Shown here in pieces: positions 5,667 through 33,987 of a stretch of DNA of 64,000 bases; the stretch's first letter is position 1, and each line of letters begins with the position of its first letter. The position numbers and the translations under genes were made by a program. The notes beneath the pieces were generated by a model. That model saw only the letters and a program-made list of their open reading frames with translations, was not told the DNA's origin and ran no database searches. The DNA comes from Streptomyces sp. NBC_01803 (GTDB taxonomy: Bacteria > Actinomycetota > Actinomycetes > Streptomycetales > Streptomycetaceae), in assembly GCF_035917415.1 (NCBI RefSeq), contig NZ_CP109073.1:5512001-5576000 (forward strand), given 5' to 3'.

Positions 5667-6151
5667 CGACACCGTCGCCCGAGGGGCTCCCGGAGCTGCC
5701 CGTCACGTTCCGGCCGATGGTCACCCGGGTCGTGCTGATGACCATCGGCGCGGCCGTCTTCGGCGTGCTCACGCTCGTCGCCGTCCTGCTCCCGGCGGAC
5801 GGCGCGATGAGCTGGAGCCTCGGGGACCGGCTGGCGTTCGTCGGCAGCGGTCTGCTCGTCTGGGCCGTGCTGGCGCTGCTCAGCCGCCCCCGGGTGACGG
5901 CGGGCCCGGAGGGCGTGACCGTCGTCAACCTCACCACCACCCGGCACCTGACCTGGCCGCAGATCCTGCGGGTCACCCTGCGGCCCGGCGACCCGTGGGT
6001 CACCCTCGACCTCGCGGACGGCACGGTGCAGGCCGTGATGGCGATCCAGCCCGGCGTCGCCCGGCGCCGGGCGCTGGCCGACGCCCGCACCCTGCGCGCC
6101 CTCGCGGAGACCCACGGCACGGCGGGCGCGGCGGACCGGACGTCACGGTAG
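5663..6151 (+). CDS. small membrane protein with bacterial PH-like domain
   Basis: This 162-residue protein has two hydrophobic helices (about residues 20-45 and 58-75) followed by a beta-rich segment (RVTAGPEGVTVVNLTTTRHLTWPQI) typical of the bacterial PH domain found in many short actinobacterial proteins. Its molecular role is unknown. It starts with GTG overlapping the hisG stop, so it is probably co-transcribed with hisEG, and its 3' end overlaps the tail of the convergent AAA+ gene by nine bases. The family call is good; no function can be given. Confidence 0.75.
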   Translation: MTTPSPEGLPELPVTFRPMVTRVVLMTIGAAVFGVLTLVAVLLPADGAMSWSLGDRLAFVGSGLLVWAVLALLSRPRVTAGPEGVTVVNLTTTRHLTWPQILRVTLRPGDPWVTLDLADGTVQAVMAIQPGVARRRALADARTLRALAETHGTAGAADRTSR

Positions 6152-8041
6152 CGGCGGCAGCCCGTCCTCCTCGGTCTCCTGCCTGCTCCCGCCCCGGCTG
6201 GAGAGCACCTCGCCGTACGCCTGCATCAGATCCGGCAGCCGCAGCGTGGACAGCTCCTGCCGGGTCGGCGCGGTGGCCGCCTCCGACAGCCGCATGTCCC
6301 GGAACGCGCAGCTCGACTCGTACAGCGTGCGCGCGAAGCGGCCGTTGCCCAGCTCGTCGATCCAGCCCTCCGCGACCACGTGCTCGCTGATGCTGCGCAG
6401 CTCCTCCAGCGCCTCCGGGTCCCAGGAGTCACCGTGCTCGGCCGCCAGCAGCTCGCCGATCGCGGTCAGCTCGCCCGGCCGGTAGCTGGGGAACTCCACA
6501 CGCGCCGAGAACCGGGAGCCGAGCCCGGGGTTGGCCGCCAGCAGCCGGTCCATGCCCGCCGGATAGCCCGCCAGGATCACCACCAGGTGCTCGCGGCTGT
6601 CCTCGGCCCGCTTCAGCAGCACCTGGAGGGCCTCGTCCCCGTAGGCGTCGCCCTTGCTGTAGCCGGAGTGGACCAGGCTGTACGCCTCGTCGATGAACAG
6701 CACCCCGCCCAGCGCCGAGTCGATCAGCCGGTTCGCCTTCACGGCCGTCTGCCCGAGGAACTCGCCGACCAGATCCGCCCGCTGGGCCTCCACCAGCCGG
6801 TCGTGGCCGAGCACGCCCAGCGCGTGGAAGATCCGGCCCAGGATGCGCGCCACCGTCGTCTTCCCGGTGCCCGAGGGGCCGGAGAAGACGAAGTGCCGCT
6901 TCGGCGGCTGCACCGGCAGCCCCTGCCCGGACCGCAGCCGCGCCATCCGCAGCTGCGCGGACATCGCCCGCACCTGCTCCTTCACCGGCTCCAGGCCCAC
7001 CATCCGGTCCAGCTCCGCCAGCGTCCGCGCCAGCAGCGCCGGATCCGGCGCGGGCGGCAGGTCGCGTGCCCCCGTGGGCGCGGCCGTGTGCCCGGCGGCC
7101 GGGCCGGCCCCGGTCGGCCGCTCACCGCCCGGAGCCGCCGCGGGGAACGGCACCCGCCGCCCCCGGTGCCCGGCGGGCAGCGCCAGCCCCTCCTCGCCCG
7201 CCGTCACCCCGGCCGGCAGCGGCCCGTCCGTGAGCCCGGACATCGAGGCCGGCAGATGAGCCGCCTCCGGGTCCTCGGTGGCCAGCGCCGACAGCCGCAC
7301 CGCCGTGTCCATGAACTCCGGATCGACGTGGTGCACCGCGCGGTACAGCGGGATCGCCGCCGCGCTGCGCCCGCTGCCCTCCCGGGCCCGGGCCAGCCAG
7401 TACCGCAGCTCCTTGCGCTGCGGCTGCTCGCTGCGGCAGCGCATCAGCGCGGCGGTGAGCAACGGCTCGGCCTGGTCGTACATCTCCAGCCTGATCCGGG
7501 CCATCCCGGCGAACAGGCCCGCCTCGACGCCCAGATGGGGATCGTCGGTCAGCGAGGAGGTGAGCCGGTACAGCCCCTCCCAGTCCTTCGACAGATAGCA
7601 CCGGCAGGCGTGCAGGAAGCGCGCGTGCGGATCGGACTCGGGCGGCCGGCACTCGGCCAGCGCGCGGTCCAGCTCCGCCATCCGCCGGCCGTCCAGGAGC
7701 TGCGAGGCGTGTGCCAGCAGCAGGTCCCGCTCGGTCTCCAGCACCGGCTGCACCCACCAGCCCAGCCAATACCACGAGCTCAACGGCCGCTTGTGCCGGG
7801 CCCGTTGCTCGCCGAAACGGGCCCGGTTGCGGTACATCTGGCGGAGCGCGACGGGCACGTCGGTGCGCAGCGCGTGCAGCCCGAGCCAGGCGTCCGCCAT
7901 GCCCGGGTCCTCCCGCACCGCCGCGCGGAACTCCTCCTCCGCCTCGGGGTAGGCCGCGGCCGTGTACGCGTCCACGCCGCGCAACCAGGCCAAGTCGGCC
8001 CCGGTATGCGGAACGTGCGCACCCTGCGTGCCAGAACTCAT
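6143..8041 (-). CDS. TPR-AAA+ ATPase, EccA/CbbX/SpoVK type
   Basis: The N-terminal half (about residues 1-270) is helical and TPR-like, with AYPEAEEEFRAAVREDPGMADAW near the start. A Pro/Ala/Gly-rich linker follows, then a CbbX-type AAA+ module: Walker A GPSGTGKT at 388-395, Walker B LFIDEA near 448, and the SRFSARVEFP segment. This layout is that of EccA ATPases of type VII secretion, yet no other ecc genes or ESX substrates occur here, so the partner is unknown. I chose ATG at 8041; GTG at 8044 is an equal alternative. A related AAA+ domain on a beta-helix scaffold is encoded at 26093-28516. Confidence 0.85.
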   Translation of the reverse strand: MSSGTQGAHVPHTGADLAWLRGVDAYTAAAYPEAEEEFRAAVREDPGMADAWLGLHALRTDVPVALRQMYRNRARFGEQRARHKRPLSSWYWLGWWVQPVLETERDLLLAHASQLLDGRRMAELDRALAECRPPESDPHARFLHACRCYLSKDWEGLYRLTSSLTDDPHLGVEAGLFAGMARIRLEMYDQAEPLLTAALMRCRSEQPQRKELRYWLARAREGSGRSAAAIPLYRAVHHVDPEFMDTAVRLSALATEDPEAAHLPASMSGLTDGPLPAGVTAGEEGLALPAGHRGRRVPFPAAAPGGERPTGAGPAAGHTAAPTGARDLPPAPDPALLARTLAELDRMVGLEPVKEQVRAMSAQLRMARLRSGQGLPVQPPKRHFVFSGPSGTGKTTVARILGRIFHALGVLGHDRLVEAQRADLVGEFLGQTAVKANRLIDSALGGVLFIDEAYSLVHSGYSKGDAYGDEALQVLLKRAEDSREHLVVILAGYPAGMDRLLAANPGLGSRFSARVEFPSYRPGELTAIGELLAAEHGDSWDPEALEELRSISEHVVAEGWIDELGNGRFARTLYESSCAFRDMRLSEAATAPTRQELSTLRLPDLMQAYGEVLSSRGGSRQETEEDGLPPLP

Positions 8042-8091
8042 CACGACCCCCACAACGGGCTCCCGCTGCCTGCCCCCAGCACCCGGAGGGC

Positions 8092-8721
8092 TCACTCGCG
8101 CTCGCGGGCATGGTAGTCACCATCCCCCGGTGTCATCAGGATATCCGCATGGGGCTCTGATGGATCATCAGCGAAGTGCCGGCGCTCGGCGGCCTCCCAC
8201 TCGGCCCAGAACCCCGCCAGTCGGGGGCCGTCCCGGCGGCGCCCGCGCGCCCAGGCGACCTCGGCCGGCACCGACAGCCAGACCAGGAAAGCGAGATGGG
8301 GACGCAGGGCCCGCCGCCCCGCGCCGACGCCTTCGAGCAGCACCACGGGCGCCGGGTCGAGCGTGGCGGTGGTGGCGAACGCCCGCCGCTCCCAGTCGTA
8401 CACCGGATACCGGGCGGTCGTTCCGGCGGCGAGCGGATCCAGCACCCGACGGGTCAGCGGCTCCACCCAGTCGAAGAACGCGCCGTGGCGGGCGAAGTCG
8501 TCCAGATGCGCCACCGGCGCGCCGCCGAGGGCCCGGGAGAGCCGGGCGGCGAGCGTGCTCTTGCCCGAGCCCGCGTGCCCGTCGATCGCCACCAGCCGCA
8601 CCGGGCCGCACGAGGGCGGCAGTGCGGCGAGCCTGGCGGGCAGTCCGGCGAGCCCGTCGTGGACAGCGGAGATCACCCCGCCCAGCGTAGCCGCACGCAC
8701 GTTCACATGGTCGAGACCCAT
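8092..8721 (-). CDS. uridine-kinase-like P-loop protein
   Basis: A P-loop GHAGSGKSTLAARLSRALG lies near residue 50, followed by HLDDFARHGAFFDWVEPLT, the acceptor-binding region of uridine kinase and phosphoribulokinase-like enzymes. VVLLEGVGAGRRALRP resembles the family Walker B region. Actinomycete genomes carry short single-domain versions of this family; the substrate is probably a nucleoside or small sugar but is unproven. The start is uncertain: ATG at 8721 gives 209 residues, while downstream GTG codons are possible and no strong ribosome site decides. It lies 50 bases upstream of the TPR-AAA+ gene in the same direction, so they may be co-transcribed. Confidence 0.8.
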   Translation of the reverse strand: MGLDHVNVRAATLGGVISAVHDGLAGLPARLAALPPSCGPVRLVAIDGHAGSGKSTLAARLSRALGGAPVAHLDDFARHGAFFDWVEPLTRRVLDPLAAGTTARYPVYDWERRAFATTATLDPAPVVLLEGVGAGRRALRPHLAFLVWLSVPAEVAWARGRRRDGPRLAGFWAEWEAAERRHFADDPSEPHADILMTPGDGDYHARERE

Positions 8722-22496: not shown

Positions 22497-23348
22497 TCAC
22501 ATGACGCGCTGGTCCGGCGTGTCGCCGTCGCCCGCGATCACCAGCTCGGGGAGGTGCCGGGCGAGCTCTTCCCGGTCCGGCGCGGGCAGCCCGGCGTCCG
22601 TCACCAGGGCATCCACCTCGTCCAGCGCGGCGAACGAACTCAGGCCCGTCGTCCCCCACTTGGTGTGATCTGCCACGACCACCACGCGCCGGGCGGAGCG
22701 GATGAAACGCCGGTTGGTCTCCGCCTCGGCCAGATTCGGCGTGGACAGGCCGGCCTCCACCGTGATCCCGTGCGCCCCGAGGAAGAGCAGGTCGAAGCGG
22801 AGCGAGCCGATCGCCGCGTCGGCCACCGGCCCCACCAGCGCGTCCGAGGGCGTCCGCACGCCGCCCGTCAGCACCACGGTCGCCGCGTGCCCGGCCCCCG
22901 GGCCGCCGTCGTGCTCCGCCGCCCGCCGGGCGTCGTGGAACACGTCGGCCACCCGCACCGAGTTGGTCACCACCGTCAGGTCCGGCACGTCGAGCAGCCG
23001 GTGGGCGACCGCGAACGTGGTCGTGCCGCCGGACAGCGCCACCGCGCTGCCCGGCACGGCCAGGGCCGCCGCGGCCCGCGCGATGTCGTGCTTGGCGGCC
23101 GGCTCCAGTGCGGACTTCGCCTCGAAACCGGGCTCGTGCGTGCGCCGTTCCCCGACCGGCACCGCGCCGCCGTGGACCTTCTCCAGCGCGCCCTGCCGGG
23201 CCAGCGCGTCGAGGTCGCGGCGGACCGTCATGTCCGACACCTGGAGCATCCGCGTCAGCTCGCTGACCCGGATGCCGCCCCGACGGCGCACCTCGGCCAG
23301 GATCAGCGCACGCCGCTGTCCGGCCAGCAGATTCTGGTTGTCGCTCAC
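22497..23348 (-). CDS. DeoR/GlpR family transcriptional regulator
   Basis: A 283-residue regulator with an N-terminal DeoR helix-turn-helix (RVSELTRMLQVSDMTVRRDL then DALARQGALEKVHGGA) and a C-terminal sugar-phosphate-sensing domain of the phosphosugar-isomerase fold (VALSGGTTTFAVAHRL, VVTNSV, VVVADHTKWG). GlpR-type proteins repress sugar or polyol genes and are released by a phosphorylated intermediate. GTG at 23348 is supported by GGGAGGAGG just upstream. The dha operon lies about 13 kb away, so a link is only a possibility. No sugar genes are adjacent. Confidence 0.9.
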   Translation of the reverse strand: MSDNQNLLAGQRRALILAEVRRRGGIRVSELTRMLQVSDMTVRRDLDALARQGALEKVHGGAVPVGERRTHEPGFEAKSALEPAAKHDIARAAAALAVPGSAVALSGGTTTFAVAHRLLDVPDLTVVTNSVRVADVFHDARRAAEHDGGPGAGHAATVVLTGGVRTPSDALVGPVADAAIGSLRFDLLFLGAHGITVEAGLSTPNLAEAETNRRFIRSARRVVVVADHTKWGTTGLSSFAALDEVDALVTDAGLPAPDREELARHLPELVIAGDGDTPDQRVM

Positions 23349-23505
23349 GAGCCTCCTCCCGACGCCGGGGAGCCATCCTCGCATGCCCCAACAAGCCCCC
23401 GCCGGGCGCGGTTCGGGACCGTTCCGGGCGGAGAAGAGGGGGACACAGGGACGTACGCGGAACAGCGGCGCGGAACAAGGGAACAGCGGACAGGGGGACG
23501 ATCCG

Positions 23506-25893
23506 ATGGCCATCGAGGGCATCGCGCGGCCGGTCGCCGGCCGGGGGGACGACGCCGGGGGGGACCCGGATCCGGAGATCCCGCCCGAGCCCGCGATGGA
23601 GCTGCTGGTGCACGGCGTCGGCGGCACCACGGCCGGGGACATGCTGGCGGATCCGCGCGTCACCCGGGTGACCGGCGACGACACCGCCGACATCCACCGC
23701 CGCACCGAGGACCTGGACGAGCGCCCCTGGGACGACAGGACTCCGCTGCGCGAGGCGTACTGCTGGTGCGACCTCACCTCGGGCGACGCCTCCCGCGTTC
23801 TGTGGCTGCTGCTGCTGCCGTTCATGATCGTCAACCTGGCGCACTGGATGCGCCCCCTCTCACGTGGCGCACGGCGCGCGCACGCCGTCTACGACGTCCT
23901 CGTGCGCCTGCTCGCTCTCTCGTTGACCGTCCTGTTCGTCGCCGGGGTGTGCGCCGTCGCCCTCGACCTGGTCGCCTGGCAGTGCGCGGGGTCGGCCACG
24001 TGCGCCGAGGGAACCTCGTGGATCGAGCCGTTCGGGCCGGGCGAGGGCTGGTGGTCCCAGCCGGGTCGGCGGCTCGCGCTGGCCGCCCTGCTTCCCGTGG
24101 CCCTCGTGGTCCTGCTGTGGTGGCTCTCCTACCGCACCTGGAGCGCCTACGAATCCGCCTCCCCGCCGCCGCGCCCCCGTTCGGACGCCGGGGAGCACGC
24201 CGTGCTGAGCCTGCCCGGCTTCTGGTTCGGCCGGGGTCTGGTCGCCCGGCTGCGCGCCACGCACACCGCCGCCGGGCTGCTGACCGTCGCCACCGCGCTG
24301 CTCGTCGCCACCGGCGAGCACGACCGGGGCCCGGACGGCGGCACCGGGCTGATGGCCGTCGGCTGGCTGCTGACCGCCCTCACGGTGGCGGGCTGGGGTG
24401 TGGTCGCCGTCCAGCAGGGGCGGCACAGCCGCACCGAGGAGGAGCCGGACGAGCGGCCGCAGCCGCCCGCCTCGCGCGCGTTGCCCTGGGGCACCCTGGC
24501 GCTGCTGGTCCTGGTCCTCGCGCACACCGTGTGGGACCGGCCCGGCTGGGTGGCGGCCGGGCGGTTACCGGCCGCGGCGGGCGTCTTCCCCGTGCTGATG
24601 GTCGCCCAGCTCGTGCTGATCGCCGGTGTGGCGCTGACCGCCCATCGGCTGCACCGGCAGGCGCCCAGCGGGGACCGCGGCACGCTGTACGGGCTGGGCG
24701 GGGCCTGCGTCGCCGTGCTGGCGTGCGGCCTCGGCGAGGTCCTGACCGGCGGTGTGGCCCAGCGCGCCGCCGACTGGCTGGACCCGGCCGCCGCGCCCGG
24801 CGAGCCCGGCGCGGTGATCGCCGGCCCGCCGAGCGTGCTGAGCTGGGCCGCCGCCGTCATCCCGCCGCTGCTGTTCGTCGTGCTGGTCCTCGCCGCCGCG
24901 GCGCTGGTCCACGCCGGCCGGGTGGCCCGCCGCCTGTCGCCCACGGTCGTCGAGCGCTACGCGGACGAGGGCTGCGAGCCGCTCCGGGAGCGCAGCGACG
25001 GCATCGCCACCGCGACCGCGCGCGCCGGGCTGACCGACGCCGCGCCCCTGCTGATCGGCGCGCTCACCGGGACGGCGCTCGTCCTCGGCGTGGTCGCGGC
25101 GGCCGGCTCCGCGACGGGCGACACCCCGTCCCGGGCCGCCGACGACGCGCCCGCCGCCGTCGCCGCGGTGGCCAACACGTGCCAGGCACTCGGCTCCTGG
25201 CTGATGGGGGCCGGAGTCCTGCTGCTGCTGGCCCTGGGGCGGCGGGCCTACCGTGACACCTCCGCCCGCCGGACGGTGGGCATCCTGTGGGACATCGGCA
25301 CGTTCTGGCCGCGCGCGGCGCACCCGTTCGCGCCTCCCTGCTACGCCGAGCGGGCCGTTCCCGACCTGTCCTGGCGGATGGGCACCTGGGTGGAGGCGAC
25401 CGGCGGCCGGCTGGTCATCTCCGCGCACTCGCAGGGCAGCGTGCTGGCCGCCGCCGCCGTCTGGCAGCTCGACGCGGCGACCCGTTCCCGGATCGCGCTG
25501 CTCACCCACGGCTCGCCGCTGGCGCGGCTGTACGGGCGGTGGTTCCCGGCGTACTTCGGGCCGCAGGCGCTGGTCGCCCTGCACCGGGACATGCCCCGCT
25601 GGCGGAACCTGTGGCGGGCCACCGACCCGATCGGTGGCCCGGTCGGTGTGGCCGCCGCAGACGTCCCACGGGTGGACCGCGGACCGTTGCCCGACCCGCT
25701 GCACTACGGGCGCACCCTGCGCCGCCCGCTTCCCGAGCCGATCCTCGGCCACAGCGACTACGCGGCGGACCCGGCGTTCGCCGCGGAGCGCGCGAAGCTC
25801 TTCCACCGGGTGGTCCGGGGCGCCCCGGACCTCCCCGCCCAGCCGGGCGCGCCGGGGGCCGAGCGACCTGGGGCCGGGCGACCAGTGTGCTGA
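23506..25893 (+). CDS. large multi-pass membrane protein with serine-hydrolase motif
   Basis: The 795-residue protein begins with a soluble segment containing ELLVHGVGGTTAGDML, an oxyanion-like strand typical of alpha/beta hydrolases. It then has about eight to ten hydrophobic helices in several groups between roughly residues 90 and 590. A soluble C-terminal region carries LVISAHSQGSVLAAAAVWQL, an SxSxGS nucleophile elbow, and THGSPLARLYGRWFP. The hydrolase fold thus seems split by an inserted membrane region. It may act on lipids, but the substrate is unknown. Homologues are annotated only as hypothetical or membrane proteins as far as I recall. The ATG has AGGGGGAC upstream. Confidence 0.75.
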   Translation: MAIEGIARPVAGRGDDAGGDPDPEIPPEPAMELLVHGVGGTTAGDMLADPRVTRVTGDDTADIHRRTEDLDERPWDDRTPLREAYCWCDLTSGDASRVLWLLLLPFMIVNLAHWMRPLSRGARRAHAVYDVLVRLLALSLTVLFVAGVCAVALDLVAWQCAGSATCAEGTSWIEPFGPGEGWWSQPGRRLALAALLPVALVVLLWWLSYRTWSAYESASPPPRPRSDAGEHAVLSLPGFWFGRGLVARLRATHTAAGLLTVATALLVATGEHDRGPDGGTGLMAVGWLLTALTVAGWGVVAVQQGRHSRTEEEPDERPQPPASRALPWGTLALLVLVLAHTVWDRPGWVAAGRLPAAAGVFPVLMVAQLVLIAGVALTAHRLHRQAPSGDRGTLYGLGGACVAVLACGLGEVLTGGVAQRAADWLDPAAAPGEPGAVIAGPPSVLSWAAAVIPPLLFVVLVLAAAALVHAGRVARRLSPTVVERYADEGCEPLRERSDGIATATARAGLTDAAPLLIGALTGTALVLGVVAAAGSATGDTPSRAADDAPAAVAAVANTCQALGSWLMGAGVLLLLALGRRAYRDTSARRTVGILWDIGTFWPRAAHPFAPPCYAERAVPDLSWRMGTWVEATGGRLVISAHSQGSVLAAAAVWQLDAATRSRIALLTHGSPLARLYGRWFPAYFGPQALVALHRDMPRWRNLWRATDPIGGPVGVAAADVPRVDRGPLPDPLHYGRTLRRPLPEPILGHSDYAADPAFAAERAKLFHRVVRGAPDLPAQPGAPGAERPGAGRPVC

Positions 25894-26092: not shown

Positions 26093-28516
26093 TCAGGGCA
26101 GCGCCGGCAGGTCCTCCGGGTGGAGGAGCGTCAGCTCCTCCGTGCTCGGGTCGACCACGCGGGCGACCCGGCCCGCGTGGCGCTCCACCATCGCCTCGAA
26201 CGTCTGGCGGGCCGTCCTGCCATTGCCGAACGAGGGGCCGCGGTCCATCCCCGTGAAGTACTTCAGCAGCCCCTCGCGGGTGCCCTCGCCGAGGTCGTAC
26301 TCGTGCTCGCGCGCCTGCTGGTCCACGATGCTCAGCAACTCCTCGGGGGAGTAGTCGCCGAACGTGATGGTGCGCGAGAAACGGGAGGCGACGCCCGGGT
26401 TCACCGCGAGGAAGCGTTCCATCTCGGCGGTGTACCCGGCGACGATCACCACCACCGCGTCGCGGTGGTCCTCCATCAGCTTCACCAGCGTGTCGATCGC
26501 CTCGCGGCCGAAGTCGCGACCCGCGTCCTCGGGGGAGAGGGCGTACGCCTCGTCGATGAACAGCACGCCGCCCCGCGCCCGTTCGAACGCCTCCTGGGTG
26601 CGGATGGCGGTCGAGCCGATGTGCTCGCCCACCAGGTCGACCCGGGAGACCTCGACCAGGTGCCCGCGCTCCAGGACGCCGAGGGAGGCCAGGATCTGGC
26701 CGTAGAGCCGGGCCACCGTCGTCTTGCCGGTGCCGGGGGAGCCGGTGAACACCAGGTGGCGGCGGGCCGAGGCGGCCTTGAGCCCGGCCTGCCGACGGCG
26801 CCGGCCCACCTCGATCATGTCGATGAGCGCCCGCACCTCGCGCTTGACCGTGTGCAGGCCGACCAACTCCTCCAACTCGGCCAGCACCTCGTCGGCCGGC
26901 CGGCTCTCCCCGGCCACCTGAGATGCCGGCTTCCCCGGCGCGGGGGTGGGGGCGGGGGCGGACGCGGGCACCCGCGCGGTCGGGGCGGTGGCCGTGTCGG
27001 TCGCCTTCGGACCGGCCGTCTTCAGCCGGATGTCGGCGCCCGGCGCGCCCGTGTCGTCGCTGTGGCAGTCCGTCAGCACCGGGCTGTCCTCGGCGAACAC
27101 GTACCCGCCCCGGGCGCACCGCTCGGTGCGGCAGCGGTTCAGCTCGCTGCGGCACCCGTCGATGATGTGGAAGCCGTACCCGCCGGAGTCGCTCACCCGG
27201 CAGCGGGTGAACCTGCCGCGCCCGCCCGCCGACACGTAGAACCCCGCCTCGGACGGGGCGGTGACGGTGCAGTCGACCACTTCGGGGTCGGCGTCCTTGG
27301 TGATGATGAAGCCCGTCCTGGCCTGGTCGATAGCGCAGCCGGTCACCGAGCCGCCGCTGCCGGCGTCGCGGAACCACGCCCCGGTGCCCACCCGATGGAT
27401 CCGCGACGCCTCGATACGGGCCGTGGCGCCGTCGCTGACCGAGACCGCCGAGCCGCGCACGTCCTCGATCCGGCTCTCCACCACGTCCGCGCGCGATCCG
27501 GCGTCCAGCACGAACAGCGCGTCGGCCACGTGGTGCACGCGGCAGGACTCCAGCACCGCCGTGGCGCCGTCGCTCACCCAGACCGCCGGATAGTCCCCGG
27601 CGGACTGGTGGATCTCGCAGTCGTGCGCGTCGGCGTGCGTGCCCGGGTCCCACACGGACATGCCGTTGCGGCCGAATCCGCTGACCGTCGTGCGCACCAG
27701 CGTCAGCACCGAACGCGACCGCAGGTCAAGGGCGTTCTCCGGGACGTCCGAGACGGTGCTGTCGGTCAGGGTCAGCACCGCCTCCGAGTCGAGCGTGACG
27801 CCGTCCCCGGTGGTGTCGCTCACCCGGCAGTCGGTGAGATGCGCGGTGGCGCGGTCGGCGAGCCGCACGCCCGTGCCGTTGATGTCCTGGATGGCGCACT
27901 CCACCGCGTCCACGGCGCTGCCGTCCCCGGTCACCGACAGGCCCGCGCCGCCGGACCGGCTCACCCGGCAGCGCTCCAGCCGCAGATGGGCCGGCCCGCG
28001 CACGGTGATACCCGGCTGGCCCGACTCCATCACCCGGCACTCCTCGAACAGCGCGCCGGCGGCGTCCCCGACGCTGATGCCGGTGCCGGTCGCGTTGCTG
28101 ACCGCGCACCCGCGGACGGTCGGCCGGGCGCCGCCGCGCACCTCGATGCCGGCGGCGGAGGCGGTGTGCACCTGGAGGGAGAACAGCTCGGGCGTGCCGC
28201 CCTCGATCAGCACCGCGGGGACACCGGTGTCCTGGCCCTCGACGCGCAGGTGGGCGATGGTGGCCGAGCCCCGGACGGTCAGCGGGACGCCGTCGATGGG
28301 CGCGATCCGGGCCTCGCCGTCCCTGGCCTCGCCGGGGCCGCGCAGGGTGACGGCGTTCTCGACGACGAGGTTCTCGCGGTAGGTTCCGGGGCCGAGGGTC
28401 AGGACATCGCCGTCCTCGGCGGCGGCCAGGGCTTCGGTGACCGTGCCGTAGACGGCCGTCCGGCGCCGCCAGCGCGCCGTTCCGGAGTGCGTCACCTGGA
28501 CCGAGCCCTTAGTCAT
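26093..28516 (-). CDS. parallel beta-helix / AAA+ fusion ATPase
   Basis: Residues from about 20 to 480 form a long right-handed parallel beta-helix of roughly 22-residue rungs (repeated units of the type GxGVxVxDxAxAxLxxCxVxxxxGxG). A Pro/Ala linker follows, then a CbbX/SpoVK-type AAA+ module: EELVGLHTVKREVRALID, Walker A GSPGTGKT at about 592-599, Walker B GVLFIDEAYAL near 651 and the SRFSRTITF segment. There is no signal peptide, so it is cytosolic and not a pectate lyase. Start ATG 28516 follows the family. It is divergent from two encapsulin shell genes, suggesting a remodelling or loading role, but that is inference. Confidence 0.85.
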   Translation of the reverse strand: MTKGSVQVTHSGTARWRRRTAVYGTVTEALAAAEDGDVLTLGPGTYRENLVVENAVTLRGPGEARDGEARIAPIDGVPLTVRGSATIAHLRVEGQDTGVPAVLIEGGTPELFSLQVHTASAAGIEVRGGARPTVRGCAVSNATGTGISVGDAAGALFEECRVMESGQPGITVRGPAHLRLERCRVSRSGGAGLSVTGDGSAVDAVECAIQDINGTGVRLADRATAHLTDCRVSDTTGDGVTLDSEAVLTLTDSTVSDVPENALDLRSRSVLTLVRTTVSGFGRNGMSVWDPGTHADAHDCEIHQSAGDYPAVWVSDGATAVLESCRVHHVADALFVLDAGSRADVVESRIEDVRGSAVSVSDGATARIEASRIHRVGTGAWFRDAGSGGSVTGCAIDQARTGFIITKDADPEVVDCTVTAPSEAGFYVSAGGRGRFTRCRVSDSGGYGFHIIDGCRSELNRCRTERCARGGYVFAEDSPVLTDCHSDDTGAPGADIRLKTAGPKATDTATAPTARVPASAPAPTPAPGKPASQVAGESRPADEVLAELEELVGLHTVKREVRALIDMIEVGRRRRQAGLKAASARRHLVFTGSPGTGKTTVARLYGQILASLGVLERGHLVEVSRVDLVGEHIGSTAIRTQEAFERARGGVLFIDEAYALSPEDAGRDFGREAIDTLVKLMEDHRDAVVVIVAGYTAEMERFLAVNPGVASRFSRTITFGDYSPEELLSIVDQQAREHEYDLGEGTREGLLKYFTGMDRGPSFGNGRTARQTFEAMVERHAGRVARVVDPSTEELTLLHPEDLPALP

Positions 28517-28918
28517 GGAACCGATGTGCCCCAACTTCGTGCGACGACTGACCTGCTGACCTGCGACCTGCCGAACCGCCCGCGCGGTGGCGCGGACGTG
28601 GCCGCTCCACGGTAGCGCGCCGCGGGCTGATGGAATGACTGGATCGATCTTCGTGCGCGTGCGCCGTCCCTGTGCATCCGCGCTCCGCGCGTGCGCCTGG
28701 GTGCTTCCCACCCTACGCGGTCACGTACGGTGCGTGACGGGGCACCGTCGGTCCCCTTCCGCAGGAACGTTCACGCGCAATACCCATGAGCCCGGGGGAG
28801 GAACCCCCAGGATTCCCCCACTTTCGAGTGATTGCCTGTCATCCGCGACAGGGCCTAGCTTCTACCGCGGGGTCCCCCGAATAGCCTATTTCCGACCGCA
28901 GATTGGCGGGTGTCCGGC
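28517..28918. other. divergent intergenic region between AAA+ and shell genes
   Basis: These 402 bases hold no gene. They contain the putative promoter of the shell genes at 28832-28861. The composition is a little richer in A and T near the shell start than in neighbouring coding DNA. No clear operator palindrome was found. Confidence 0.5.
28832..28861 (+). promoter_or_regulatory. putative promoter of the encapsulin operon
   Basis: TTGCCT (28832-28837), an 18-base spacer and TAGCTT (28856-28861) resemble a vegetative sigma-factor promoter. A start near 28868 would give a leader of about 50 bases before the ATG at 28919, leaving room for a ribosome-binding site. The match is moderate. Confidence 0.45.
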
Positions 28919-30331
28919 ATGACGACTTCCACCGAGCCCACTCAGGGAAACGAGACGGCGCACGCCCGGTTGAGCCTCGATACGGCAGCTGCCCGGAATC
29001 TGGCGACGACCACCAAGACTCCGCCGCAGATGCAGGGCATCACCTCCCGGTGGTTGCTCAAGGTGCTGCCGTGGGTACAGGTTTCCGGCGGTACGTTCCG
29101 GGTCAACCGCAGGTTGACCCACACCGTCGGAAACGGACGTGTCGAATTCGTTTCCACCGGTTCCGAAGTGCGGGTCATCCCGGCCGAGCTGGGGGAGCTT
29201 CCCGTCCTGGCCGGATATGCCGGGACCGACGTGCTCCAGGAGCTGGCGGCGGCCTGCGAGCAGCGGGACTTCGCCCCGGGCGAGGTGATCGTCGAGGCCG
29301 GCGCCCCCGCCGACCGCGTCGTGCTGATCGCCCACGGCAAGCTCGCGCGGCGCGGCGCCGGCCGGTACGACGCGGAGACCGACCACGGGGTGCTGGCCGA
29401 CGGCGACTTCTACGGCGCCGGCGTGCTCGGGGAGGAGGACCCCGGCACCTGGGAGCACAGCCTGAGGGCGCTCACCAGCGGCACCGTTCTCACCCTCGGC
29501 CGGGCCGACTTCGAAGCCATCGCGGCCCGTTCGCCGGGTCTGGCCGACCACGTGGCGGCGTTCCGCGGCGCGGCGCCCGGCCGCAGCAACGCGCACGGCG
29601 AGTCCGCGATCGAGCTGGCGTCGGGCCACGTCGGCGAGCCGGTCCTGCCGGGCACCTTCGTGGACTATGAACTCCAGCCGCGCGAGTACGAATTGAGCGT
29701 CGCGCAGACCGTGCTCCGGGTCCACAGCCGGGTCGCCGATCTCTACAGCGAGCCGATGAACCAGGTCGAGGAGCAACTGCGCCTGACCATCGAGGCGCTG
29801 CGCGAGCGGCAGGAGAACGAGCTGGTCAACAACCGGGAGTTCGGCCTGCTGCACAACGCCGACCTCCGCCAGCGTGTCCACACCCGGAGCGGCCCGCCCA
29901 CTCCAGACGACCTGGACGAGCTCCTGGCCACCGTCTGGAAGGAACCCAGCGTCATCCTCGCCCACCCCCGGGCGATCGCCGCGTTCGGTCGCGAGTGCAA
30001 CGCCCGCGGCCTGTACCCGGGCAGCGTGGACCTCGGCGGGAACGCGGTCCCGGCCTGGCGCGGCGTCCCCGTGCTGCCGTGCGACAAGATCCCGGTCACC
30101 GCCGCCGGGACCAGCTCCATCCTGTGCCTGCGCACCGGCGAGAAATCCCAGGGCGTGGTCGGTCTGCACCGCACCGGAATCCCCGACGAATATCAGCCGA
30201 GCCTGTCCGTGCGTTTCATGGGCATCAACGACCAGGCCGTCATCTCCTATCTGGTCAGCGCCTACTATTCGGCCGCCGTCCTCGTCCCCGACGCCCTGGG
30301 CGTTCTGGAGGATGTCGAGATCGGGTACTGA
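28919..30331 (+). CDS. Family 2B encapsulin shell protein, EshA-like (first copy)
   Basis: This 470-residue protein has the Family 2 encapsulin signature: N-arm with [32 protein letters not shown], and HK97-type core segments [34 protein letters not shown] and [20 protein letters not shown] cyclic-nucleotide-binding domain is inserted at about residues 100-215, defining Family 2B, to which Streptomyces EshA belongs. Family members assemble into icosahedral compartments holding, for example, 2-methylisoborneol synthase. The phosphate-binding cassette is atypical, with RALT at 183-186 instead of RAAT. ATG 28919 is preferred to GTG 28910. The second shell gene follows after 34 bases. Confidence 0.9.
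29728..29874 (+). repeat. 147-bp block identical to 31148-31294 (shell copy 1)
   Basis: This stretch, encoding residues 271-319 of the first shell protein, is identical base for base to 31148-31294 in the second shell gene, although sequence on both sides differs, including at synonymous sites. This indicates recent gene conversion or recombination between the two paralogues. Confidence 0.9.
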
Positions 30332-30365
30332 GCCGGAGAATCCACAACGGCAGAAGGCGACCGAC

Positions 30366-31742
30366 ATGAACGCCCCCGTGAATCCCGTCCCGACCAGCCT
30401 CGAAACCGCCGCCGCGAGAAACCTGGCGAGCACTCTCAAAACACCCCCGCAGATGCAGGGCATCTCGCCCCGGTGGCTCCTCAAGGCGCTGCCATGGGTG
30501 GAGGTTTCCGCCGGCACCTACCGGGTGAACCGCAGGCTCACCCACACGCTCGGTGACGGACGTGTGGAGTTCGTCAGCACCGGCACCGAGGTCCGGGTGA
30601 TCCCCGCCGAGCTGACCGAACTCCCCGCCCTCGGCGGCTTCGACGACCCCGGAGTCCTCGACGTCCTCGCCGACCGATGCGTTCAGCGCGAGTACGGCCC
30701 CGGCGACGTCATCGCCGCCGCCGGCGAGCCCGTCGGGGAGGTGGTCCTGATCGCCCACGGCAAGGTCCGCAGATCCGTCCCCGGCCGGTACGGCGGGGAA
30801 GCCGTGCTCGGCGTGCTGGCCGACGGCGACCACGCCGGGGACGAGGCCCTGGCCGGGCCGCCCGGCACCTGGCCGCACACCCTGCGGGCGGCCACCCGCT
30901 GCACCGTCCTCGCGCTGCCGCTGGACGAGGTGCGGACGGTGGCCGGGGAGTCGCCCGCCCTGCGGGCCCACCTCGACGCCGTCGCCGCCCGCCCCGCGCC
31001 CCGCCGCAACAAGCGCGGCGAGGCCGATATCGCGCTGGCCTCCGGGCACACCGGTGAGCCAGCCCTGCCGGGCACCTTCGTTGATTACGAACTTCACCCG
31101 CGCGAGTACGAGTTGAGTGTCGCGCAGACCGTACTGCGGGTGCACACCCGGGTCGCCGATCTCTACAGCGAGCCGATGAACCAGGTCGAGGAGCAACTGC
31201 GCCTGACCATCGAGGCGCTGCGCGAGCGGCAGGAGAACGAGCTGGTCAACAACCGGGAGTTCGGCCTGCTGCACAACGCCGACCTCCGCCAGCGCATCCG
31301 CACCCGCACCGGGCCGCCGACCCCTGACGATCTCGACGACCTGGTCTCCCGGCGCCGCAAGACCCGCTACCTGCTGGCGCACCCCCGCACCATCGCCGCC
31401 ATCGGCCGCGAATGCAGCGCGCGCGGCGTCTACCCCGGCCAGACGGAGCTCGACGGCGTCCGCCTGCACGCCTGGCGCGGTATTCCCATCCTGCCCTGCG
31501 ACAAGATCCCCGTGACCAGGGACAACACCAGCTCCGTGCTCGCCATGCGCACCGGCCAGGAGGACCAGGGCGTCGTCGGCCTGCACCAGACGGGCATCCC
31601 CGAGGAGTACGAGCCCAGCCTCAACGTCCGCTTCATGGGCATCGACGAGCAGGCCGTCATCGCCTACCTCGTCAGCCTCTACTTCTCCGCCGCCGTCCTG
31701 GTCCCCGACGCCCTGGGCATCCTGGAGGACGTGGAGATCTGA
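30366..31742 (+). CDS. Family 2B encapsulin shell protein (second copy)
   Basis: A 458-residue paralogue of the preceding gene with the same parts: N-arm [25 protein letters not shown], a cyclic-nucleotide-binding insert at about residues 90-205, and the HK97-like core ending in [20 protein letters not shown]. Its phosphate-binding cassette keeps RAAT (174-177), closer to the canonical CNB motif than in copy 1. The first ten residues and the insert are the most divergent parts. Tandem shell genes suggest a two-component, mixed shell whose state could depend on a cyclic nucleotide. GGCGACCGACATG gives only a weak ribosome site, so coupling to copy 1 is possible. No typical cargo gene (terpene cyclase, desulfurase) is adjacent. 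Confidence 0.9.
31148..31294 (+). repeat. 147-bp block identical to 29728-29874 (shell copy 2)
   Basis: The second member of the identical pair within the two shell genes. Immediately upstream the codons for [21 protein letters not shown] differ at several third positions between the copies, so the identity is not explained by protein-level constraint alone. Confidence 0.9.
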
Positions 31743-31769
31743 CGGCCCCGACCCGCCGCCGGTCGCCGC

Positions 31770-32360
31770 CTAGTGGCCCGCCCCCTGCTCCTGCCAGTAT
31801 CCCGGGGAGGCGTACGGCTGCTGCTGGGCGGCGGCCGGCGGCTGGGGCTGCGCCTGTGCCGGGTACGGGTGCTGGCCCGGCGCCTGGCTCTGGCCCTGAC
31901 CCTGGTAGGCCCCCGGCATCGGGCGCGGCGGCATGGGCCGCGGCGCGGCCGGGCGCATCTGCTGGGGCGCGGCCGCCTGCGGGGCCTGCGGCGCCTGCGC
32001 CTGATAGGGCCGCGGTGTGTTCGCCTGCTGCGGGAAGTGCGGCGCGGGTCCCGGCGGGCCTCCCGCCGGGAACTGCTGGCGGACCGGCGCCGCCTGGTAC
32101 CCGCCGTAACCCTGCTGCTGCGGCTGCTGGAACGCCGGCTGCGGCTGCGGCTGCGACGGCCCCGAGGGCAGCGCGGGCAGGGCCGGCAGCGCGGGCTGCG
32201 GGGCGGGAGCGGGCTGGTATCCCAGCGAGTCGTAGGCGGCCGGGACCCGGATGGGGGCGATCTGCGGGGTTCCCCGCTCGGCCACCAGCCTGTCGTAGAT
32301 CGGGGTGTCGGCGAACGACGGTGAGGAGTAGGCACCGCCGTAAGGGCGCGGGGAGGTCAT
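31770..32360 (-). CDS. DUF6643-like low-complexity protein
   Basis: The 196-residue protein has a short conserved N-terminus ([35 protein letters not shown], about residues 12-46) followed by about 150 residues rich in Pro, Gln and Ala that are surely disordered. I associate the N-terminal pattern with the Streptomyces-specific DUF6643 family; no function is known. It converges on the second shell gene, with 27 bases between stops. Family 2 encapsulin cargos often carry long disordered Pro/Ala-rich loading segments, so an encapsulin-associated role is worth considering, but nothing here proves it. Confidence 0.7.
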
Positions 32361-32479
32361 GGCCCTTAAGGTAAGCCCACGATGTGGTTGTTGGGGAGTC
32401 CGATCAGAAGGTCATTTGCGCGGTTGCATGGGCCTCGGGTACTCAATTCGAAAGAATTCCGGAAAAAACGTCGATCGGC

Positions 32480-32503
32480 CCCCTGATGATGTTGTATCAG
32501 GGG
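32480..32503. promoter_or_regulatory. inverted repeat upstream of the TerD gene
   Basis: CCCCTGAT and ATCAGGGG flank an eight-base loop, about 93 bases before the TerD start, in a relatively AT-rich gap. A second small palindrome, AATTC-GAAA-GAATT, lies near 32445-32460. Either could be an operator or, less likely, a terminator; there is no T-tract. Confidence 0.5.
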
Positions 32504-32595
32504 CCTGGACCGACCGTCTTCGGTGGGGATGGCATAGTGGGCGATGTCCGCGAAACAGGCGGTGTGACGACGGCCGCCCCACGGAGGAACCCACG

Positions 32596-33987
32596 ATGCT
32601 CAAAGGTGCGAATGTCCCGGTGCCCGCCCGGTCGGTCCGCGTCGAGATCGGCTGGAACACGGCAGCGGGGGTGCCGGACGTGGATGCCTCGGCGCTCCTG
32701 CTCGCGGGAGGCCGGGTCAGGTCCGACGCGGACTTCGTCTTCTACAACCAGCCGCGGCACGCCTCCGGCGCCGTGCGCTACGAGGGCAAGCAGCCGCAGG
32801 GCGGTGCCGTCACCGACCGCCTCGCCGTCGACCTGACGGCCCTGGAGGCCGGCGTCGAGACGGTGGTGCTCGCCGCCTCCGCCGACGGCGGTACGTTCGG
32901 GCAGGTTCCCGGGCTGCACGTGCGCCTGAGTGACGCCGACAGCGGGGCCGAGATCGCCCGCTTCAACAGCGAGGACGCCTCCACCGAGACCGCCTTCGTG
33001 CTGGGCGAGCTGTACCGGCGGCAGGGGGCCTGGAAGTTCCGCGCGGTGGGCCAGGGGTACGACTCGGGGCTGGCCGGCCTCGCCACCGACTTCGGCATCA
33101 GCGTGGACGACGAGCCGGCGCCCGCCCCCGCGCCGTCGGCCCCCCCGGCGGCACCCGCGCCGCCCGCGCCGCCCGCTCCCGCCCCTCCGGCGATGACCCC
33201 GCCCCCGGCCCCGGCGCCGCTGAACGCCCCCTCCTGGCCGCCGCCCGGCCAGTCCGCGCCGCCGCCGGCTCCCCCCGCCCCCCCGGCCCCGGCTCCGGCC
33301 GCTCCGCCCGCCGCACCCCAGCCGCCCGCGCCGAGCGGTCCCGTACGGCTGAGCAAGATCACGCTCACCAAGGAGTCCCCGGCGATCTCCCTGGCGAAGC
33401 AGGGCGCCACCTCGGGCCGCATGCGCGTCAACCTCAACTGGCAGGAGCGCTCCGCCCCCCAGAAGCAGGGCAGCGGCTGGCGCGAGCGGCTGGCCAAGGC
33501 CGTCTCCGGCGGCCTCGACCTCGATCTGTGCGCGCTGTTCGAGCTCAACGACGGCCGCAAGGGCGTCGTCCAGGCCCTGGGCAACGCCTTCGGCTCGCTC
33601 CACCAGCCGCCCTACATCCACCTGGACGGCGACGACCGCACCGGCGCGGTCGCCCAGGGCGAGAACCTCACGGTCAACCTCGACCACACCCGTGACCTGA
33701 AGCGCGTGGTCATCTTCGTGACGATCTACTCGGGCGCCAGCAGCTTCCAGGACATCAGCGCCGTGGTGACCCTCACCCCCGAGCAGGGCGCGCCCATCGA
33801 GTTCTTCCTCGACGAGTGCACCGTGCCCTCCCCGGTCTGCGTCCTGGCGACGCTCACCAACCAGGGCGGCGGGCTGGTCGTCAACCGCGAGGCCCGCTAC
33901 CTGATCCCCGACCGGGGCGTCAGCCCGCAGCGCACCGTCGACTACGCGTACGGGTTCGGCATGCAGTGGACCCCGGGCCGCAAATGA
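32596..33987 (+). CDS. TerD-family protein with two TerD domains
   Basis: The 463-residue protein has an N-terminal TerD domain (about residues 1-170; [26 protein letters not shown] and the Asp-rich calcium-site region), a disordered Pro/Ala linker of about 75 residues (175-250) and a second TerD-like domain with [15 protein letters not shown] and VNLNWQERS. TerD proteins bind calcium and are linked to stress, tellurite and phage responses; in Streptomyces they affect differentiation. GGAGGA precedes the ATG. The racemase gene overlaps its stop by ATGA. Confidence 0.88.

Follow-up and report, generated by a model that had tools for sequence, protein, structure and literature searches.

A two-component Family 2B encapsulin pair with localized gene conversion between its shell genes in Streptomyces sp. 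NBC_01803

EshA is a Family 2B encapsulin shell protein of Streptomyces. In the operon of EshA and the 2-methylisoborneol encapsulin, i.e., eshA-mibA-mibB, which is activated by BldC, one shell gene is found together with the 2-methylisoborneol synthase gene (PMC6428758). Two-component Family 2B operons have two shell genes, and besides terpene cyclase and prenyltransferase their neighbours can be cysteine desulfurase or xylulose kinase (XK), or there is no obvious cargo, i.e., the class 'Other' (PMC12407261). The pair of Streptomyces lydicus, Sl-Enc1 and Sl-Enc2, is of the XK type with xylose genes nearby. Its cyclic-nucleotide-binding-type domain (CBD) lies in the E-loop and its diagnostic motif 1 in the A-domain, and Sl-Enc1 alone makes no shells and mixes with Sl-Enc2 (PMC12407261). 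Here, a stretch of 64,000 nucleotides from Streptomyces sp. NBC_01803 (contig NZ_CP109073.1, positions 5,512,001 to 5,576,000), called the window, was analysed. Two tandem shell genes, Enc1 and Enc2, lie in it between a beta-helix/AAA+ ATPase gene and a DUF6643 gene (Table 1). The explanation that we prefer, and regard as probable, is a two-component Family 2B shell situated at a core ATPase-DUF6643 interval, with gene conversion of one segment, mixed assembly, and any cargo encoded in trans.

Both shells matched PF19307 and PF00027 in Pfam, and both have the Family 2B architecture, i.e., an HK97-type SrpI domain with a CBD in the E-loop. The NCBIfam model of Family 2B encapsulins, NF041163, gave 753 bits for Enc1 and 752 bits for Enc2 at a cut-off of 400, and no other SrpI-type matches were found in the 5.85-Mb genome. 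The two genes are on the same strand, 34 bases apart, where two-component systems are defined by shell genes within 10 kb and the diagnostic Enc1 and Enc2 motif 1, one in each shell. A second in-frame start of Enc1 is the GTG at 28910. The nearest solved chains were 9bje and 9bix, which were taken as the S. lydicus two-component shells because their letters contain motif 2 of Sl-Enc1 and Sl-Enc2 (PMC12407261). The tandem order, the CBD in the E-loop and motif 1 (TVWK and RRRK) are identical to those of S. lydicus, whereas the motif 2 letters differ in both window shells. The setting differs as well, since no xyl gene was found in the window. The absence of a cargo gene beside the shells is shared with the 'Other' operons. 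Because motif 1 of the window shells is exactly that of S. lydicus, a mixed shell is likely, and by this analogy the most likely arrangement in this organism is one HK97-fold shell in which Enc1 and Enc2 are mixed. Across six relatives, the ratio of nonsynonymous to synonymous substitution rates (dN/dS) was 0.14-0.36 for the whole shells, 0.07-0.31 for the HK97 part and 0.32-0.67 for the CBD. Both shells are under purifying selection. The window pair adds to the two-component Family 2B encapsulins, without a cargo gene in cis and with co-assembly assumed from its relatives. An earlier note on this DNA had proposed tandem shells with cyclic-nucleotide-binding-type inserts, forming a two-component Family 2B shell that lacks cis cargo; the family models, motif 1 and the Pfam search of the window support this description.

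Shell loci for comparison were collected by a contig scan, in which the best 80 of 344 matches gave the 79 loci used. Group A is the 44 loci with shells at this site, all named Streptomyces or Streptomycetaceae, and group B is the other 35. Two full-length shells were obtained from 72 of 82 loci, i.e., 41 of group A including the window and 31 of group B, and the other ten lacked one or both. The two window genes are 75% identical overall and share an identical run of 147 nt. In codon shuffles the longest run averaged 24, and none of 500 shuffles reached 147 nt. In 28 of 41 group A genomes, and in 6 of 9 XK-type genomes compared separately, the longest run shared by a genome's own Enc1 and Enc2 was longer than any run between the Enc1 and Enc2 of different genomes. 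Codon constraint was rejected as an alternative to conversion, because the cross-genome Enc1-Enc2 comparison gives few long runs.

The identical runs of at least 40 nt were located at Enc1 residues 231-335, where they occurred in 23-50% of group A genomes and in at most 1.7% of cross-genome pairs. Elsewhere in group A they occurred in 1% at residues 336-350, which include motif 1, in none at 81-215, and in 2-6% at 21-80. In trees of 60 codons, the Enc1 and Enc2 of the same genome were sisters in 24/41 at residues 231-290 and 19/41 at 261-320; the other 12 windows of this size gave 1/41 at both 201-260 and 351-410, and 0/41 in the remaining ten. Fixed-segment trees of group A gave sisters in 21/41 in the segment, 17 of them with support of at least 0.8, and in 0/41 for the N-terminus, the CBD and the A-domain. 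Gene conversion between Enc1 and Enc2 is recurrent, and in group A it is limited to residues about 231-335. With the CBD placed in the E-loop and motif 1 placed in the A-domain (PMC12407261), what remains of the E-loop, together with the P-domain, should make up the conversion segment. Conversion of this kind fits the shared use of one segment in a mixed shell. In group B, the Enc1 and Enc2 of L065 and L071 are identical over 503 and 319 nt, respectively, and the longer run lies in the N-terminal and CBD part. These long runs may come from conversion or from recent duplication, and they extend beyond the limits found in group A.

Assembly error is a possible origin of identical stretches in draft genomes. 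Of five draft contigs that end in Enc2, those of L005, L007 and L032 stop inside the segment, as a repeat would cause, and those of L012 and L025 stop outside it. The window genome is a single contig. In the open-access literature searched, encapsulin and gene conversion were found together only in a giant-virus paper. Neither 'gene conversion' nor 'recombination' occurs in PMC12407261. In the same literature, no paper on encapsulin with phosphoketolase and none on DUF6643 was found.

The four genes and the gap of 27 bases between the convergent ends of Enc2 and DUF6643 were confirmed as the earlier note had described them. That note joined them into one compartment. In this reading, the beta-helix/AAA+ protein would load or remodel the shell and the DUF6643 protein would be a partner, i.e., cargo or scaffold. 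In 43 of 44 group A loci, Enc1 is preceded by the divergent ATPase gene (L037 is cut off by the end of its contig), with a membrane gene between the two in 18 of 44, and the DUF6643 protein, which is Pro/Gln-rich, loosely resembles cargo-loading tails. However, both neighbours are core genes. With the AAA part of the ATPase as query, 101 of 101 genomes matched at E <= 1e-50, and an orthologue, i.e., at least 80% identity over the AAA part, was found in 99 of 101, the exceptions being G031 and G099. DUF6643 was found in 196 of 199 Streptomyces genomes searched, as was the SrpI family, and the two lie millions of bases apart in both genomes compared (G052 and G126). Forty ATPase regions, chosen mainly for long contigs and regardless of encapsulins, were read. 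DUF6643 was on the same side in 39 of them (in L094 it lies outside the fetched stretch), a membrane gene of the 202-aa type was at about +0.8 kb in 35, a racemase was in 37, and TerD was in 30. Shells were present in three, i.e., L092, L094 and L118, and in the 37 regions without shells DUF6643 was 0.6-6.7 kb from the ATPase start. Because these 37 regions hold the block of both genes and no shells, the ATPase and DUF6643 form a conserved block which is usually without an encapsulin.

None of the 35 group B loci showed the ATPase within its stored stretch. On the tree of 80 ATPase proteins, 43 with and 37 without shells (4 of 84 were dropped by length), the presence of shells required one change, whereas 200 shuffles gave a mean of 26.8 and a minimum of 20. 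Because one change is enough, the adjacency in group A is one event plus descent. The shells were gained or lost once in the ATPase-DUF6643 interval. The ATPase is not a dedicated one, which would be co-inherited with the shells and absent without them. When it was checked whether the four genes stay together across Streptomyces, they did not, and the neighbours mostly occurred without shells at the site. The reading as a four-gene compartment, against which DUF6643 also stands more than 2 kb from Enc2 in 19 of 32 measurable loci, is already largely refuted, and we regard it as extremely improbable.

Some further observations were made on the ATPase and its block. In L094 (G086), counted from the start of the ATPase gene, Enc1 begins at +1.2 kb and Enc2 at +4.8 kb. 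These starts are about 3.6 kb apart instead of about 1.5 kb, with roughly 2 kb between the two genes. In the divergent ATPase, a beta-helix is combined with an AAA+ domain and its lid. These two parts were correctly recognized by the earlier note, whereas its CbbX-type assignment was matched only below the cut-off, as were the SpoVK and EccA models of NCBIfam. Relatives of the AAA part at about 55-60% identity were seen in other Streptomyces, several with two adjacent matches in one frame of about 1100 aa. An anti-phage role of the ATPase was considered and dropped, since the family matches were weak and in the AAA domain only.

The distance between Enc2 and DUF6643 could be measured in 32 loci, where both genes are on one contig; it was less than 2 kb in 13 of them and exceeded 2 kb in the other 19. 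Among the 19 large gaps, the phosphoketolase family was found in 13 and the aldehyde dehydrogenase family in 14, with one member of each identified by Pfam. These genes, with a GAF-regulator gene, might be a cargo operon of the sister species which was lost from the window lineage or was never in it. However, phosphoketolase occupies many different sites in the 90 of 101 genomes that have it, also beside the block without shells (L110), and that of the window genome is 3.5 Mb distant. The starts of the proteins seen showed no evident extra tail, as judged by inspection without a disorder predictor. No insert between Enc2 and DUF6643 was present in 10 of 10 measured loci of the window clade. 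A cargo operon of this kind is improbable. A link through xylulose-5-phosphate between the phosphoketolase of the sister loci and the XK-type loci was also tried, and was dropped for the same frequency of phosphoketolase and its occurrence beside the shell-free block.

Among the window genes tested by Pfam, no terpene cyclase, prenyltransferase, xylulose kinase or cysteine desulfurase was found, and no gene of the terpene cyclase or polyprenyl synthase type lies in cis among them. Codon-position GC was used to pick these genes, and a handful were added manually. As Enc2 itself escaped the picker and some short picks were outside the Pfam test, a small or atypical gene could have been overlooked. 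The earlier note had expected a terpene cyclase or a prenyltransferase at known Family 2B loci. Their absence here was borne out for the tested genes, but the list was incomplete according to PMC12407261. The genome-wide search, which was for terpene synthases (PF19086), gave matches at three places only, i.e., at 0.35 Mb, at 3.35 Mb with two domains in a single frame, and at 4.73 Mb. A terpene cyclase cargo in trans was sought through the GPTGLGT motif, reported for cyclases such as 2-methylisoborneol synthase (PMC8346489), and was rejected with no exact DNA-pattern match genome-wide, variants being outside the search.

A conserved box, CACTTTCGAGTGATTGCC, was found in the window and in 44 of 44 group A loci with 13-18 of 18 letters, in each case above the best of 20 shuffles of its own. 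It is placed about 100 nt before Enc1, except for one locus at -51 and two beyond -150. In group B, 14-16 of 18 letters were found in L045, L050, L062, L063, L067, L068 and L079, and the S. lydicus-type loci were near background (11-13 of 18). At up to 2 mismatches the window genome has one site, before Enc1 itself, and therefore the box gives no regulon lead toward a co-regulated cargo in trans. It could be considered that the shells are decaying after the loss of their cargo, as no cis cargo was found and the CBD evolves fast (dN/dS as above). However, both frames are intact, the HK97 part has a dN/dS of 0.07-0.31, the box is conserved, and the pair was retained throughout a clade of 17 tree members. 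A decaying orphan is accordingly a poor explanation, with a small chance of being correct.

The XK cargo class was examined with xylB orthologues, which were found at E <= 1e-200 in 57 of 101 genomes. At least 10 of the 57 have an SrpI match, among the matches listed, within about 10 kb. Of the other 47 genomes, 23 were read, i.e., 20 chosen for long contigs without a listed shell nearby and the three group A genomes. In the 20 stretches, xylA diverges from xylB in 19, and on the downstream side of xylB there is a ROK regulator in 19 (5 kb off in L153) and an amidase in 18. Shells are absent in 20 of 20 by selection, and the block itself is the result. Nine of the ten shell-bearing xylB loci were read, and Enc1-Enc2 is on the downstream side of xylB in all nine; xylA and ROK are present in six and not in the stretch for L165, L170 and L171. 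Cargo had been assigned from the proteins within 20 reading frames of a shell (PMC8346489), and the native cargo of XK systems was not determined as yet (PMC12407261). Because the xylose block is conserved also without shells, the XK cargo assignment is confounded. This weakens synteny as evidence for XK cargo, and does not disprove XK as cargo.

Xylulose kinase could still be the true cargo of the window pair, in trans since the shells left the xylose locus. In the Enc1 tree without the conversion segment, the XK-type proteins of L050 and L067 are the sisters of group A (0.997). Three other group A genomes searched have a full xylB elsewhere, 74-76% identical, and the group A xylose genes are xylA-xylB-ROK-amidase without shells in L141, xylA-xylB-ROK in L142, and xylB alone in L140. 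The window genome has an intact FGGY-family kinase at 4.49 Mb, 46% identical to the XK query, for which the sequence makes xylulokinase activity possible. However, no xylB lies beside the shells among the window genes tested, and the closer xylB of this genome is a fragment, i.e., about query residues 5-163 in a frame of 167 aa, 5.3 Mb away. The xylA-xylB-ROK-amidase block is shell-free in many Streptomyces, and XK has no consistent disordered stretches of the kind seen in other Family 2B cargos (PMC8346489). We regard XK in trans as very unlikely. In the fragment region of the window genome (L143 10983-13509, G000:C1 about 232980-235510), only the first third of xylB is left, directly before a ROK regulator, and part of an amidase was matched there as well.

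The phosphate-binding signature of cyclic-nucleotide-binding domains includes a Glu and an Arg. In group A, with columns picked by eye, the Glu column has E in 4/41 Enc1 and 9/41 Enc2, and D in 25 and 28. In the presumed Arg column, the five most frequent residues do not include R. Two columns further on, 11/41 Enc1 and 28/41 Enc2 have an R, which was taken as the following framework residue. According to PMC12407261, the Family 2B insertion domain binds no cyclic nucleotides, and another ligand was proposed. The nucleotide gating of the earlier note lacks support, as that paper states no such binding and the signature residues are mostly not kept in these by-eye columns. A probable role of the CBD is to shape or gate the two-fold pore, with some ligand that is neither cAMP nor cGMP.

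Table 1. Features of the encapsulin locus, in window positions
Feature	Position	Strand	Remarks
Enc1, Family 2B encapsulin shell protein	28919-30331	+	470 aa, ATG start; diagnostic motif 1 TVWK at residues 338-341
Enc2, Family 2B encapsulin shell protein	30366-31742	+	458 aa; diagnostic motif 1 RRRK at residues 329-332
Beta-helix/AAA+ gene	26093-28516	-	PF13229, PF05048, PF00004, PF17866; core chromosomal neighbour, outside the encapsulin system
DUF6643 gene	31770-32360	-	PF20348, 80 bits; core chromosomal neighbour, outside the encapsulin system
TerD-domain gene	32359-33987	+	Usual next member of the ATPase-DUF6643 block (30/40 regions)
Enc1 stretch identical to Enc2, gene-conversion tract	29728-29874	+	147 nt, Enc1 residues about 270-318
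Enc2 counterpart of the 147-nt stretch	31148-31294	+	Sequence identity with Enc1 29728-29874
Conserved box CACTTTCGAGTGATTGCC	28819-28836	+	About 100 nt 5' of Enc1; probable promoter or operator
-10-like TAGCTT	28856-28861	+	Downstream of the box

Two other genes of the window were recorded. A frame of 1063 aa (22702-25893, + strand) had no Pfam, NCBIfam or PADLOC match, and it lies beside the ATPase in 41 of 44 group A loci and in most of the 40 regions. Another AAA+ gene (6143-8095, - strand) has an EccA1-like N-terminal domain (PF21545).

In the preferred explanation, as judged from the genes alone, the shells would sit in a core block with DUF6643 and usually also TerD and racemase, probably transcribed from a promoter at the box. 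Enc1 and Enc2 would co-assemble as their S. lydicus relatives do. Recurrent conversion would keep Enc1 residues about 231-335, i.e., from the CBD end to motif 1, interchangeable, whereas the N-arm, the CBD and the A-domain motifs of the two shells would remain distinct. The cargo, if any, would be encoded in trans.

Several results weigh against this explanation. The conversion signal is weaker in group B, where the own run was above all cross runs in 6/31 only, and where the sisters were 7/31 in the segment but also 5/31 in the N-terminus and 4/31 in the CBD. Because the group B signal reaches the N-terminus and the CBD, the sharp limits of conversion are a group A result. The AlphaFold models were poor; their mean pLDDT (the per-residue confidence of the model) was 51.8 and 54.9, and most of the conversion segment had values below 50. 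As the models are too weak there, the place of the segment in the fold is taken from the order of the parts. No trans cargo was found in the motif and box searches. The group A Enc2 groups with the Enc2 of the PT+TC type at weak support (0.738) and the deep nodes are weak, so that the trees give no firm history of the pair. Finally, the ATPase upstream in 43 of 44 group A loci is explained by descent, yet may also reflect a functional link.

A bolder view, which we hold tentatively and give somewhat less than an even chance, is that in Streptomyces the two shell genes, with a promoter of their own, form a portable module. It would have settled in at least two unrelated core loci, i.e., the xylose block and the ATPase-DUF6643 block, with no true cis cargo at either, so that the XK class would be an effect of the insertion site. 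Conversion would keep the shells assembly-compatible while selection keeps the N-arm, the CBD and the A-domain motif apart. The CBD pair would then be adjustable in a mix-and-match shell, for a trans-encoded cargo or for a small-molecule or signalling role.

By these controls, a tempting four-gene system was removed. The same control weakens the published XK assignment, because in either case the supposed 'partners' are conserved genes of the place in which the shells are found. The main interest of the locus lies in these controls, i.e., in a published cargo class made doubtful and in a localized, recurrent conversion of shell genes. The conversion map is direct evolutionary evidence for which part of two co-encoded HK97-fold shell proteins stays interchangeable and which parts stay different, and it points to segments that may be swapped in the S. 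lydicus shells, for which structures are solved.

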